Assembly: GCA_004292745.1 (NCBI GenBank)
Contig: RDXH01000034.1
Location: 1-43,582, forward strand
Source: Oscillatoriales cyanobacterium
GTDB taxonomy: Bacteria > Cyanobacteriota > Cyanobacteriia > Cyanobacteriales > Microcoleaceae
Direction of reading: 5' to 3'
Length of the DNA stretch: 43,582 nucleotides
Positions within the stretch are counted from its first letter, which is position 1, and every line of letters begins with the position of its first letter. A program made the position numbers and the translations under genes. Shown here piece by piece: positions 37,281 to 43,520 of this stretch. Under the pieces are notes generated by a model. The model made no database searches. It saw only the letters and a program-made list of their open reading frames with translations, and had not been told where the DNA came from.

Positions 37281-37445
37281 TTCAATAATTTTACAGTATA
37301 AATTTACTAATATCAACAATTAGAATCAAAGAACTAAACAACTAATATTTTTTAAGTAAATTTATGTTTCTTAGTATTCAGTCAACTATTTTAAGTATAA
37401 AATGTTTCCCAGCTAGCAAGCTGTTTACTCAATTAATTGTATCTT

Positions 37446-38771
37446 ATGGCTCCCACATCAAGTTTGTTGATCCGCCACGCTCGTATTCTTTTGCCCAATG
37501 GTGAGTTTTTGCCAGGGGACGTGCAAATCTGCGATGGCAAAATAGTCGGAGTTGCTGCTGAAATTGTCGCATCGGGCGATCGGGAAATAGACGCGAGCGG
37601 TTTAACTTTGTTACCGGGAGTAATTGACCCCCAGGTACACTTCCGCGAACCGGGTTTGGAACACAAGGAAGATTTGTTTACGGCTAGCTGTGCTTGCGCT
37701 AAAGGCGGTGTCACCTCGTTTTTGGAAATGCCGAATACGCGACCTCTGACCACCACTCAAGCTGCTTTAGATGATAAATTGCGCCGCGCGGCCGAGAAGT
37801 GTTTGGTGAATTATGGCTTTTTTATTGGAGCAACCTCTGAAATTTTACCAGATTTATTGAGCGCCCATCCGACATCGGGAATTAAAGTTTTCATGGGTTC
37901 GATGCACGGCGACTTATTGATGGATGACGCAGCAGTGTTAGAGGCGATTTTTGCTAAGGGCGATCGGCTAATTGCGGTACACGCCGAAGACCAAGCTAGA
38001 ATTAATCAGCGTCGTCAGGAATTTGCTGGGATTTGTGATGTAGCGATTCACTCACAAATTCAAGACAATCAAGCTGCTTTGTTAGCTACTCAGCTAGCCT
38101 TAAAACTTTCTAAAAAATATCAGCGCCGCCTGCATATTCTGCATCTATCTACCGGAGAAGAAGCGGAGTTTTTGCGCCAAGAAAAACCGAGTTGGGTGAC
38201 AGCAGAAGTGACACCACAGCATTTGTTGTTAAATAGCAGCGCCTATGAAACCATTGGTAGTTTAGCTCAAATGAATCCGCCTTTGCGATCGCCCCGCGAT
38301 AACGAAATACTGTGGCAAGCTTTACTCGACGGCGTAATTGATTTTATCGCCACGGATCACGCGCCGCACACCTTAGCTGAAAAAGCTCAAACTTATCCAA
38401 ATACACCGTCGGGAATGCCCGGTGTTGAAACTTCTTTACCTTTGATGCTGACGCAAGCAGTCGCGGGAAAGTGTACAGTTGCTCAAGTTGCTAATTGGAT
38501 GTCAACGGCAGTTGCTAAAGCTTACAAGATTCCGAATAAGGGTAAAATTGCCCCTGGTTTTGATGCGGACTTGGTATTGGTCGATTTGGAGAAGTATCGC
38601 CCGGTTGTGGGAAAAGAAATGGCCAGTAAGTGTGGCTGGAGTTCCTTTGAAGGTTGGAACTTGACTGGCTGGCCTGTGGTGACAGTTGTGGGAGGAAAAG
38701 TGGTTTTTGAGAATGGGAAATTGGATACAAATGTGAGGGGAAAAGCCTTGACATTTGACGCAGATATGTAG
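37446..38771 (+). CDS. pyrC: Dihydroorotase
   Basis: 441 residues from the ATG at 37446. It catalyses the reversible ring closure of carbamoyl aspartate to dihydroorotate in pyrimidine synthesis. Amidohydrolase motifs: PGVIDPQVHFREPG with the metal-binding HxH-type site (about 63-71), SGIKVFMGSMHGD (Lys of the KVF block, possible carbamylation site), VHAEDQ, LHILHLST and FIATDHAPHT (catalytic Asp). The length fits the class I/DHOase-hydantoinase-like type (about 425-450). The stop codon TAG is the TAG of the GTAGGGG that opens the repeat block at 38768, so the original 3' end may have been altered by that element. Confidence 0.93.
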   Translation: MAPTSSLLIRHARILLPNGEFLPGDVQICDGKIVGVAAEIVASGDREIDASGLTLLPGVIDPQVHFREPGLEHKEDLFTASCACAKGGVTSFLEMPNTRPLTTTQAALDDKLRRAAEKCLVNYGFFIGATSEILPDLLSAHPTSGIKVFMGSMHGDLLMDDAAVLEAIFAKGDRLIAVHAEDQARINQRRQEFAGICDVAIHSQIQDNQAALLATQLALKLSKKYQRRLHILHLSTGEEAEFLRQEKPSWVTAEVTPQHLLLNSSAYETIGSLAQMNPPLRSPRDNEILWQALLDGVIDFIATDHAPHTLAEKAQTYPNTPSGMPGVETSLPLMLTQAVAGKCTVAQVANWMSTAVAKAYKIPNKGKIAPGFDADLVLVDLEKYRPVVGKEMASKCGWSSFEGWNLTGWPVVTVVGGKVVFENGKLDTNVRGKALTFDADM

Positions 38772-38961
38772 GGGAGAAGCATTCGGGAGACAATCCATGA
38801 AAGATACACAAAGTATTGTGCCCGAATGCAACGCCTGGCCACAACCAAAAATCGCGATTCAGAATTCCCCATCGCGGTTTACCTGTGGGTTTGGGCGAAG
38901 CATTTGGGCCATTATTCACCCATACGATATAAGATTTTTTGCCCAAATGCTTCGCCCCTAC
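38768..38961. repeat. GTAG-bounded BIME-like repeat A
   Basis: 194 bases. Left end GTAGGGGAGAAGCATTCGGG; right end in reverse complement GTAGGGGCGAAGCATTTGGG (18 of 20 match). Two hairpins: GCATTCGGG/CCCGAATGC (38779-38829) and a perfect 17-base stem GGGCGAAGCATTTGGGC with its complement (38893-38909 and 38941-38957). The repeat thus looks like two head-to-head REP units. Confidence 0.9.
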
Positions 38962-39042
38962 GGGTGATGGAATCCGGAATTGTTACTTGGCAATTGACAT
39001 TATCCAAAATAGTTTGATAAAATCCTATTATCGGTAAATCAC

Positions 39043-39237
39043 GTAGGGGAGAAGCATTCGGGAGACAATCCATGAAAGATAGACAAAGTATGGTGCCCGA
39101 ATGCAACGCCTGACCCCAACCAAAAATCCCGATTCAGAATTCCCCATCGCGGTTTACCTGTGGGGTTTGGGCGAAGCATTTGGGTCATTATTCACCCATA
39201 CGATATAAGATTTTTTGCCCAAATGCTTCGCCCCTAC
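39043..39237. repeat. GTAG-bounded BIME-like repeat B
   Basis: 195 bases, nearly identical to repeat A and in the same orientation, separated from it by an 81-base spacer (with CTTGGCAATTGACATTATCC) that recurs between C and D. The right-hand stem is at 39169-39185/39217-39233. It ends 47 bases before the RAYT start codon. Confidence 0.9.
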
Positions 39238-39284
39238 GGGTGATGGAATCCGGAATTGTTAAAATTTACAAAATTAACAAAGCT

Positions 39285-39899
39285 ATGAAATATAACCCCG
39301 AAATCCACCACCGGAAATCTATTCGCCTCAAAGGTTATGATTATACACAACCAGGGGCTTACTATATCACTATCTGCTCTTACCAAAGGCAATGTTTGTT
39401 TGGTGAAGTTGTAGCAGGAATCATGAAGCTAAATTTAATTAGTGAAACCATTCAATATTGTTGGCATCGTTTGCCAGAACATTTTCCTTTTATAGAATTA
39501 GATGCTTTTGTGATTATGCCAAACCATCTGCACGGAATTATTTTGATAGCTGACGGCAATACTAACAAAAGTCAATTATTCAAACAGCCGATAATTCAAC
39601 CTGTATCATCTGATCGGATACCTAAATTGCCCAAAGGAACAGAATCAGGTTCATTAGGGGCCTTAGTACAAAACTTTAAATCAATAGTAACCCGTCGAGT
39701 CAATCGCCTAACTAGGAATTCTGGTACAATATGGCAAGAGGGCTATTATGAAGAAATTATCCGCGATGAACGAGCTTATGATAATATCAGAAAATATATA
39801 GTTCAAAATCCTTTAAAATGGCATGATGACGAAAATTATACGCTCCAAAATTGCGATCGCAACACAAGATCCCCATCCAATTCCCTAAAAATAAATTAA
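39285..39899 (+). CDS. REP-associated tyrosine transposase (RAYT, Y1/IS200-like)
   Basis: 204 residues from the ATG at 39285; the frame is open further upstream but that part is repeat B. The N-terminus RKSIRLKGYDYTQPGAYYIT is typical of the cyanobacterial Y1_Tnp family. The HUH metal site is H81-L-H83 in FVIMPNHLHGII. The nucleophile is probably Y154 or Y155 in WQEGYYEEIIRDERAYDNI, followed by YIVQNPLKW. RAYTs bind and cut single-stranded REP hairpins carrying a 5' GTAG-like tetranucleotide and are usually single-copy, domesticated relatives of IS200 transposases. The gene is intact. It lies between two copies of a roughly 490-base direct repeat, each holding two GTAG-bounded palindromes, which strongly suggests its substrate. 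Confidence 0.9.
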   Translation: MKYNPEIHHRKSIRLKGYDYTQPGAYYITICSYQRQCLFGEVVAGIMKLNLISETIQYCWHRLPEHFPFIELDAFVIMPNHLHGIILIADGNTNKSQLFKQPIIQPVSSDRIPKLPKGTESGSLGALVQNFKSIVTRRVNRLTRNSGTIWQEGYYEEIIRDERAYDNIRKYIVQNPLKWHDDENYTLQNCDRNTRSPSNSLKIN

Positions 39900-39912
39900 T
39901 TACCCAAAATCA

Positions 39913-40107
39913 GGTAGGGGAGAAGCATTCGGGAGACAATCCATGAAAGATACACAAAGTATGGTGCCCGAATGCAACGCCTGGCCCCAACCAAAAATCC
40001 CGATTCAGAATTCCCCATCGCGGTTTACCTGTGGGTTTGGGCGAAGCATTTGGGCCATGATTCACCCATACGATATAGGATTTTTCGCCCAAATGCTTCG
40101 CCCCTAC
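39913..40107. repeat. GTAG-bounded BIME-like repeat C
   Basis: 195 bases, same orientation and sequence class as A. The 17-base stem is at 40039-40055/40087-40103. It begins 13 bases after the RAYT stop codon. With D and their common spacer it forms the right-hand copy of the A-B block. Confidence 0.9.
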
Positions 40108-40188
40108 GGGTGATGGAATCCGGAATTGATACTTGGCAATTGACATCATCTAAAATAGTTTGATAAAATTCTCTTATCGGTAAATCAC

Positions 40189-40383
40189 GTAGGGGAGAAG
40201 CATTCGGGAGACAATCCATGAAAGATAGACAAAGCATTGTGCCCGAATGCAACGCCTGACCCCAACCAAAAATCCCGATTTAGAATTCCCCATCGCGGTT
40301 TACCTGTGGGGTTTGGGCGAAGCATTTGGGTCATTATTTACCTATACCATATAGGATTTTTCGCCCAAATGCTTCGCCCCTAC
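40189..40383. repeat. GTAG-bounded BIME-like repeat D
   Basis: 195 bases, with stem at 40315-40331/40363-40379 (one mismatch, GGGT for GGGC). Its terminal CTAC, read on the minus strand as GTAG, supplies the TAG stop of tsaE; the adjacent ATTCCATCACCC flank, shared with A-C, encodes the FHHP end of that protein. Confidence 0.9.
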
Positions 40384-40859
40384 GGGTGATGGAATGAATC
40401 AGGATTGTATAAGGGCAAATCCTGTAATTGCCAATTACCAATCAATTCAATTTGTCGCCCCTGGTCGCAATAATTTAAACAAATTTGCAAATAATTATCT
40501 GGTTTGTAGGGCAATTTTTCCGCCCATTCAATCGCTACAATTCCCAAATCCATTTCTAATCCGTCCCAATAACTTTCTAAGTGCAAAGCCTCCACTTCGT
40601 CTGTTTCTAAACGATACAAGTCTAAATGATAAAGAGGAATTCTCCCTGTTAAATACTCGTTAATGAGGGTAAAAGTAGGACTTTCAATGGAATCTTGAAT
40701 TTCTAAACCTTCAGCGATGCCTTGAACTAAAGTAGTTTTGCCAGCGCCCAAATCTCCTTCTAATAAGATGACAGTGCCGGCGGGGAGCGATCGCCCTAGT
40801 GTTACACCCAACTTGCGCGTAGCTTCCGCATCGGGAAGAGAAAGTATGATTTTAGTCAT
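40380..40859 (-). CDS. tsaE: tRNA threonylcarbamoyladenosine biosynthesis ATPase TsaE
   Basis: 159 residues. P-loop G35-DLGAGKT42, SPTFTLINEY and the YHLDLYRLE box, plus IVAIEWAEKLP (Walker B-like region), identify TsaE. This ATPase works with TsaB and TsaD to place threonylcarbamoyl on A37 of ANN-decoding tRNAs. It lies four bases after yvcK on the same strand, so it is almost certainly co-transcribed. The last four residues (FHHP) and the stop come from repeat D. The natural C-terminus of this family is variable, so activity is probably unaffected. Confidence 0.93.
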   Translation of the reverse strand: MTKIILSLPDAEATRKLGVTLGRSLPAGTVILLEGDLGAGKTTLVQGIAEGLEIQDSIESPTFTLINEYLTGRIPLYHLDLYRLETDEVEALHLESYWDGLEMDLGIVAIEWAEKLPYKPDNYLQICLNYCDQGRQIELIGNWQLQDLPLYNPDSFHHP

Positions 40860-43211: not shown

Positions 43212-43520
43212 TCATTGGATAGTCAGTTGGCAGTTGGCAGTTGGCAGTTGATAGTTGTCAGTTGGCAGTTGATAGTGGTTAGTAGACAGTGGTTAGTTGG
43301 CAGTTGGCAGTTGGCAGTTGTCAGTTGGCAGTTGGCAGTTGATAGTTGGCAGTTGGCAGTTGATGGTTGGCAGTTGGCAGTTGATGGTTGGCAGTTGGCA
43401 GTTGATGGTTGGCAGTTGGCAGTTGATGGTTGGCAGTTGGCAGTTGATGGTTGGCAGTTGATAGTTGGCAGTTGGCAGTTGATAGTGGTTAGTAGACAGT
43501 GGTTAGTAGACAGTGGTTAA
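43199..43520. repeat. Long heptamer array TTGGCAG/TTGATGG/TTGATAG
   Basis: More than 40 tandem heptamers. A 21-base higher-order unit (TTGGCAGTTGGCAGTTGATGG) recurs about five times between 43344 and 43460, and TAGTGGTTAGTAGACAG occurs at both ends. The frame stays open across it (WQLAVDG repeats) only because 21 is a multiple of 3. Confidence 0.95.

Follow-up and report, generated by a model that had tools for sequence, protein, structure and literature searches.

REP-associated tyrosine transposases (RAYTs, or TnpA-REP; REP, repetitive extragenic palindrome) and their partnership with REPs are already known, and so are TnpA-REP subclass 2.4 and its long and its double-foot REPs in cyanobacteria (PMC6006769, PMC3733652). 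Subclass 2.4 corresponds to RAYT group 4 of Bertels 2017 and is abundant in Cyanobacteria, where long and double-foot GTAG REPs flank its genes (Quentin et al. 2018, PMC6006769). In parallel, the GTAG families of Di Nocera et al. (2013, PMC3733652) were described as REPtrons with repeat-specific RAYTs. Here, the window, namely the whole stretch of 43,582 nucleotides that was analysed (contig RDXH01000034.1 of an Oscillatoriales cyanobacterium, assembly GCA_004292745.1), was found to carry a RAYT gene, RAYT-A, framed by four large GTAG-bounded units. The locus is probably a REPtron that joins a RAYT closest to TnpA-REP subclass 2.4, or RAYT group 4, to the large REPs cognate to it. In each unit, two long hairpins form an inverted pair that resembles a REPIN (REP doublet forming a hairpin) or a BIME (bacterial interspersed mosaic element), and the system hardly extends beyond this locus in the window genome.

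RAYT-A and its four flanking units

The gene and the units are arranged as follows:

Unit 1, 38768..38961, plus strand: GTAG-hairpin, linker, hairpin-CTAC, of the 194-195-nt class
Unit 2, 39043..39237, plus strand: direct copy, reference for blastn identity
RAYT-A (TnpA-REP) gene, 39285..39899, plus strand: 204 amino acids, NHLH and Y171, profile match to TnpArep 4er8
Unit 3, 39914..40107, plus strand: direct copy
Unit 4, 40189..40383, plus strand: direct copy

The units, each of 194-195 nt, all lie in direct orientation with start-to-start spacings of 275, 871 and 275, share about 96% identity with unit 2 (blastn) and stand two on each side of the gene, which is the REPtron arrangement of GTAG hairpins around a RAYT. 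The initial annotation had described a gene between two tandem pairs of a repeat bounded by GTAG and CTAC with two hairpins inside, and this description held. The layout is GTAG, left hairpin, linker, right hairpin and CTAC, with outer GTAG and CTAC in 4/4 units, and the inner feet of both hairpins are not GTAG. The right hairpin has a perfect stem of 16 or 17 bp; in the left one, the upper stem pairs perfectly over 9 bp (GCATTCGGG/CCCGAATGC) and the lower stem of the window copies is interrupted, with 3 unpaired and one G-U among 16 modelled pairs. The linker is able to form a third, weaker hairpin. Two REPs are in this way inverted with their GTAG feet outward, as in REPINs and BIMEs. The BIME of Escherichia coli is likewise an inverted REP pair. 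The REPIN also consists of two inverted REPs with GTAG-like ends outward (Bertels and Rainey 2011, PMC3116915). Unlike REPINs and BIMEs, the units have arms of about 70 nt and a long linker, and their dispersed copies are few in the window genome.

The single-stranded DNA fold of unit 1 lies far beyond chance: its energy is -44.2 kcal/mol, whereas 200 dinucleotide-preserving shuffles averaged -22.0 (standard deviation 3), which corresponds to a z of -7.4, and 0/200 shuffles equalled it. Among 23 right hairpins, 96.9% of the cells were paired and 12 were double-changed; the shuffled mean was 3.8, and 0/500 shuffles reached 12. Most of these changes fall in a single column, U-A to C-G. The foot of the unit is GTAG-GGG; pairs 5-71, 6-70 and 7-69 are invariably G-C in the right hairpins, and of the 21 left hairpins 6 have G-U at pair 5-71. 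A long REP with a GTAG foot and three basal G-C pairs is also what is described for subclass 2.4, whose genes are flanked by long GT[AG]G REPs, some of them double-foot (PMC6006769). Unlike those REPs, the window unit combines two long hairpins whose loops measure 31-33 nt. The repeats had been called much larger than classical REPs, which is true, though long and double-foot GTAG REPs are already in print (PMC6006769).

In the same way, the units resemble the GTAG-12, -15 and -16 families, GTAG-tagged cyanobacterial palindromes of filamentous and unicellular species, and differ from the GTAG families in print, whose stems are of 6-13 bp and whose loops are of at most 15 nt, inner loops beyond that length being limited to some Bradyrhizobium elements (PMC3733652). 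The stem of the window units, GGGCGAAGCATTCGGA, is contained in 152-bp direct repeats of Microcystis aeruginosa PCC 7806, which bracket a ParE/ParD-like toxin-antitoxin pair whereas the window units bracket a RAYT (PMC7935541). That paper was the one match when short strings were searched in open full texts, and within this literature the unit stem was not found in print as a RAYT partner. An Rfam scan of the whole window gave 0 families at gathering score.

RAYT-A contains N80-H81-L82-H83, W150-Q and Y171, and these motifs are invariant or almost so across 16 aligned RAYTs. N80, H81, H83 and Y171 are present in 16/16 rows, which bears out the claim of a RAYT with an HUH (histidine-hydrophobic-histidine) site and a single catalytic tyrosine. 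A profile of RAYT-A relatives matched one solved chain, TnpArep 4er8 (E 7.8e-5), in the Tyr region only. Compared with the subclass 2.4 table (NH[IFV]H / WQ / YIxNNP; PMC6006769), WQ agrees, while NHLH and YIVQNP are each one position off. The ratio of nonsynonymous to synonymous substitution rates (dN/dS) was 0.22-0.49 in the six pairs formed by four orthologs of the genus, and RAYT-A at this locus, between pyrC and tsaE, is under purifying selection. It is a low-copy, vertically retained gene as opposed to a multicopy insertion sequence (IS), with one copy in the window genome plus one 46% identical paralog (motifs NHVH, WQ and YIINNP) on contig C407. Plasmids gave 5 records of RAYT-A, each at <60% identity, and phages 1 record.

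An array of GTAGGGGCGGGTTT...AAACCCGCCCC palindromes, distinct from the unit stem, comes after the paralog (L012:2119-2830); a 14-mer of the GTAGGGGCGGGTTT type had 167 matches in the window genome and 6 for the reversed pattern. By eye, an array resembling clustered regularly interspaced short palindromic repeats (repeat GTTTCCATTCAATTAGTTTCCCCA(A/G)CGAGTGGGGAG) adjoins this second RAYT at L012:2990-3540.

Units and stems in other genomes

A RAYT-A match (E <= 0.001) was found in 187 genomes of an order-wide set of 291. The stem GTAGGGGCGAAGCATT, sought at <=2 mismatches within 1.5 kb in the 29 best loci besides the window, lay near 13/14 other RAYTs at >=55% identity and 1/15 below that value (p 3e-6, with the 55% cut picked after the data were seen). 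The REP/BIME-type pairing reported by the initial annotation recurs near these 13 of 14, and the unit-RAYT architecture is also seen at orthologs from other families of that order. Six relatives at 52-53% identity (L062-L065, L067, L068) were without the stem, and five of them, from genus g3, carry a 28-nt GTAGGGGCGAGG palindrome that lies inside the RAYT gene in L062, L063 and L065. GTAG palindromes inside the RAYT gene of relatives (L062, L063, L065, L075, L077, L079) are a further likeness to subclass 2.4, in which REPs occur inside some tnpA-REP genes (cf. PMC6006769); no palindrome was found inside the window RAYT gene.

A wider set consisted of the best 80 named RAYT loci of a longer list, from one contig scan across phyla. 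Within 1.5 kb of these best 80 genes, GTAGGGG occurred 318 times against 56 for the reversed 7-mer, and 70/80 loci had two or more copies against 13/80 for the reversed one. The stem of RAYT-A units is GGGCGAAGCAT and that of RAYT-B is GGGCGGGTTT; the A stem flanks 18 of the best 80 loci and the B stem 11. The A-stem loci belong to Chloroflexota, Cyanobacteriota, Thermodesulfobacteriota, Gemmatimonadota, Nitrospinota, Tectimicrobiota and Myxococcota, one being unplaced. On a quick tree of 113 RAYTs from many phyla, in which 51/109 inner branches are weak, label A required 8 changes, whereas 300 shuffles averaged 30 and never fell below 23; label B required 9 (shuffled mean 13.4, minimum 11). 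Hairpin type tends to follow the RAYT family tree, with a clustering that is inflated by near copies, labels that are short motifs and an A type that is not one clade. Tandem GTAG-TGAGGACTT hairpins of period 67 were also observed beside the RAYT of G209 (L094:674-1333).

Copy numbers depended on what was counted. The 16-mer core had >=20 matches in 67/291 genomes, including 10/10 of those with an ortholog at >=59% identity. The arm motif of the unit, CATTCGGGNGACAANNNATG at <=1 mismatch, of which one unit can yield two matches as its arms are inverted, had any match in 42/291. It had >=10 matches in 5/10 genomes whose ortholog has >=59% identity and in 1/281 others (p 9e-8), so that this unit-specific count separates genomes with and without RAYT-A. 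The raw tally was 6/10, as G000 had 10 raw matches, 6 of which belong to another repeat (CATTCTGG) and were set aside. Many dispersed copies, as arm-motif matches, are present in G180 (30), G152 (23), G139 (17), G055 (13) and G165 (11), and whole bipartite units away from the RAYT gene were seen in copies fetched from G139, G165, G152 and G055. The proposal that the RAYT moves or maintains these repeats is supported by the dispersal in these five genomes and not by the window genome, which has hardly any. Within family f32, the four genomes with RAYT-A had 13, 17, 23 and 11 arm matches and the six others 0, 3, 3, 0, 0 and 1. In genus g75, G180, with RAYT-A, stands beside G167 (7) and G127 (6), in both of which a RAYT profile search gave no match.

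Whether other RAYTs mobilise the A core was examined in 20 genomes that are rich in the core and were chosen for no or weak RAYT-A match. Of these, 19/20 had a match to NF047646, 17/20 over the cut-off. Only 1/30 fetched loci (L081-L110) had the A core within 1.5 kb; this candidate was rejected, and the A core in those genomes is therefore without a demonstrated mobiliser. Several of these loci carry other GTAG hairpins.

MITE copies of the core in the window genome

Half-sites of the 16-mer number 140 in the window genome; the reversed pattern has 2. From the matches listed (first 100 of 140, sites near fetched ends dropped), 77 distinct elements were obtained, one being the window cluster. 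Among these matches, 65 of the 76 other GTAGGGGCGAAGCATT-like elements carry the arm of a miniature inverted-repeat transposable element (MITE) at <=3 mismatches, 32 on both sides and 33 on one, against 13/2000 random positions; the threshold was tightened to this value since <=5 mismatches admitted 281/2000 random positions. At the looser threshold, 45 two-arm copies were present among the matches listed, and an 8-bp duplication (<=1 mismatch) flanked 32/45 of them (20 perfect) against 11/1980 mispaired flanks (1 perfect). The end pattern of this GGGWGCATCYC MITE had 48 matches in the genome and 0 in the control. The GTAG-core count is misleading in this genome because it consists mostly of MITE copies, and the 16-mer was dropped as a proxy for RAYT-made repeats once MITE arms had been found on most sites. 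Apart from the window cluster of four units, the genome yielded one bipartite relative (C376) and a small number of single hairpins.

The palindrome is absent from 2/30 MITE loci read (L301:1501, L317:1501). In both, the sequence rejoins at the GTAG foot, where a C repeat of 2-3 nt marks the junction, and these copies may be ancestors, excisions or slippage deletions. In L307, L313, L324 and L325, the MITE cores depart from GCGAAGC in the lower stem, as with GCTATAGC; the two stem arms have changed jointly in L307 and L313, so that the hairpin is retained. A second outer arm (TATAGCAACCGCC) encloses the core in L025 and in 3/5 copies read from G032 (L151, L152, L154), and a third one does so in G074 and G108 (L157, L160). 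One MITE with a perfect 8-bp duplication lies at L020:1456-1530 inside an apparent Fic gene read from DNA, a label assigned from a HPFRDGNGRTAR motif. No report of REP cores inside MITEs was found in a literature search that was not wide.

The pyrC-tsaE interval and alternative explanations

The units touch both neighbouring genes:

pyrC, 37437..38771, plus strand: left neighbour, dihydroorotase by sequence, ends on the unit 1 foot
tsaE, 40380..40859, minus strand: right neighbour, Pfam TsaE at 127 bits, ends on the unit 4 foot

The left neighbour is presumably pyrC. GTAG of unit 1 provides its TAG stop (38769-38771), and CTAC of unit 4, which is GTAG on the minus strand, provides that of tsaE (40380-40382, minus). 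Among 29 genomes of the genus, 27 had tsaE, and up to 1.5 kb was read per locus. RAYT-A adjoins tsaE in 4/27 (G000, G297, G294, G269) and a 25-aa fragment of it does so in 1/27 (G299). The sister species G228 and G219 (2/27) have at pyrC-tsaE a single unit with identical outer boundaries and no RAYT. The remaining 20/27 had neither RAYT nor A half-site in the stretch read, which included pyrC in 16 of the 20. The solo unit has the form expected from recombination between direct units and may be a chimera of units 1 and 4. A DUF433-DUF5615 pair occupies the interval in L204:756-1421 (Pfam, L204 only), and open reading frames that resemble this pair by eye are present there in several other sister species. 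Elsewhere in the window, a long GGCAGTTG-type short tandem repeat run (43215-43520) lies downstream of an ATP-binding cassette transporter ATPase gene.

If the locus works as a REPtron, RAYT-A would bind the unit hairpin in single-stranded DNA, be guided by GTAG, nick the foot via Y171 and copy or rearrange the units, while tandem direct units might recombine so that the RAYT gene is deleted and one unit is left. GTAG-guided binding and cleavage are predicted here from sequence. Several observations weigh against the REPtron reading. The Pfam Y1_Tnp score of RAYT-A is 23 bits, exactly at the cut-off of 23, and that for NCBIfam NF047646 REP_Tyr_transpos is 72 bits (E 4.6e-20), under the cut-off of 80. 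Covariation is weak in the left hairpins (n=21; 92.9% paired, 2 double-changed cells), whose percentage paired is matched by 87/500 shuffles. The full unit is barely dispersed in the window genome. Half of the RAYT-A genomes (5/10) have <=4 true arm matches (G000 4, G269 2, G062 1, G173 0, G020 0), and G101 has 19 with only a broken, distant RAYT relative. Finally, the comparison that the initial annotation had proposed, of GTAG-stem core copies in genomes with and without the RAYT clade, fails at face value: >=20 matches were also reached in 57/281 genomes without a close ortholog, for example G193 (298) and G032 (222).

The units might instead be passive structural elements, such as 3'-end hairpins or transcript ends, next to a decaying or domesticated RAYT that does not act on them. 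They stand exactly at the ends of the convergent pyrC and tsaE, hardly spread in the window genome, and are missing together with the RAYT from 20/27 genus loci in the stretch seen. This explanation is nevertheless unlikely, as the RAYT is conserved (dN/dS 0.22-0.49), the unit type accompanies its clade, in dispersed form, in other families, and the stem types are grouped on the RAYT tree. A conventional insertion sequence of the IS200/IS605 kind, with ends repeated by chance, would belong to the same HUH superfamily and also show repeats at both sides. It is very improbable given a single genome copy with one 46% paralog, a protein that is RAYT-type and not IS200-type (NF047646, 72 bits), and a gene fixed at one orthologous locus in four genus species in which unit numbers vary. 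Taken literally, the initial annotation would make all dispersed GTAG-core palindromes of the window genome products of RAYT-A. The excess of half-sites (140 against 2) and a 16-mer common to the window units speak for it, but it is scarcely tenable when, among the matches listed, the MITE arm is on 65/76 non-window sites against 13/2000 random ones and the 8-bp duplication flanks 32/45 two-arm copies against 11/1980 mispaired flanks. The REPtron reading is preferred over all three.

A broader proposal can be put forward only tentatively. RAYT and REP stem might co-travel and co-evolve as cognate pairs across phyla, GTAGGGGCGAAGCATT with one lineage set and GTAGGGGCGGGTTT with others, and the palindrome might have been captured centrally by unrelated MITEs, whereby REP-like hairpins would now be spread by a DDE-type transposon without the RAYT. 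Subclass 2.4 is large, yet no biochemical study was found in the portions of the literature consulted on it. As a warning, short GTAG-core counts in cyanobacteria may count MITEs. The states found at one locus within the genus, RAYT-plus, RAYT-fragment and solo-unit, together with families that have or lack the RAYT-A gene, make it testable whether the RAYT keeps the repeats alive and how the stem is recognised.

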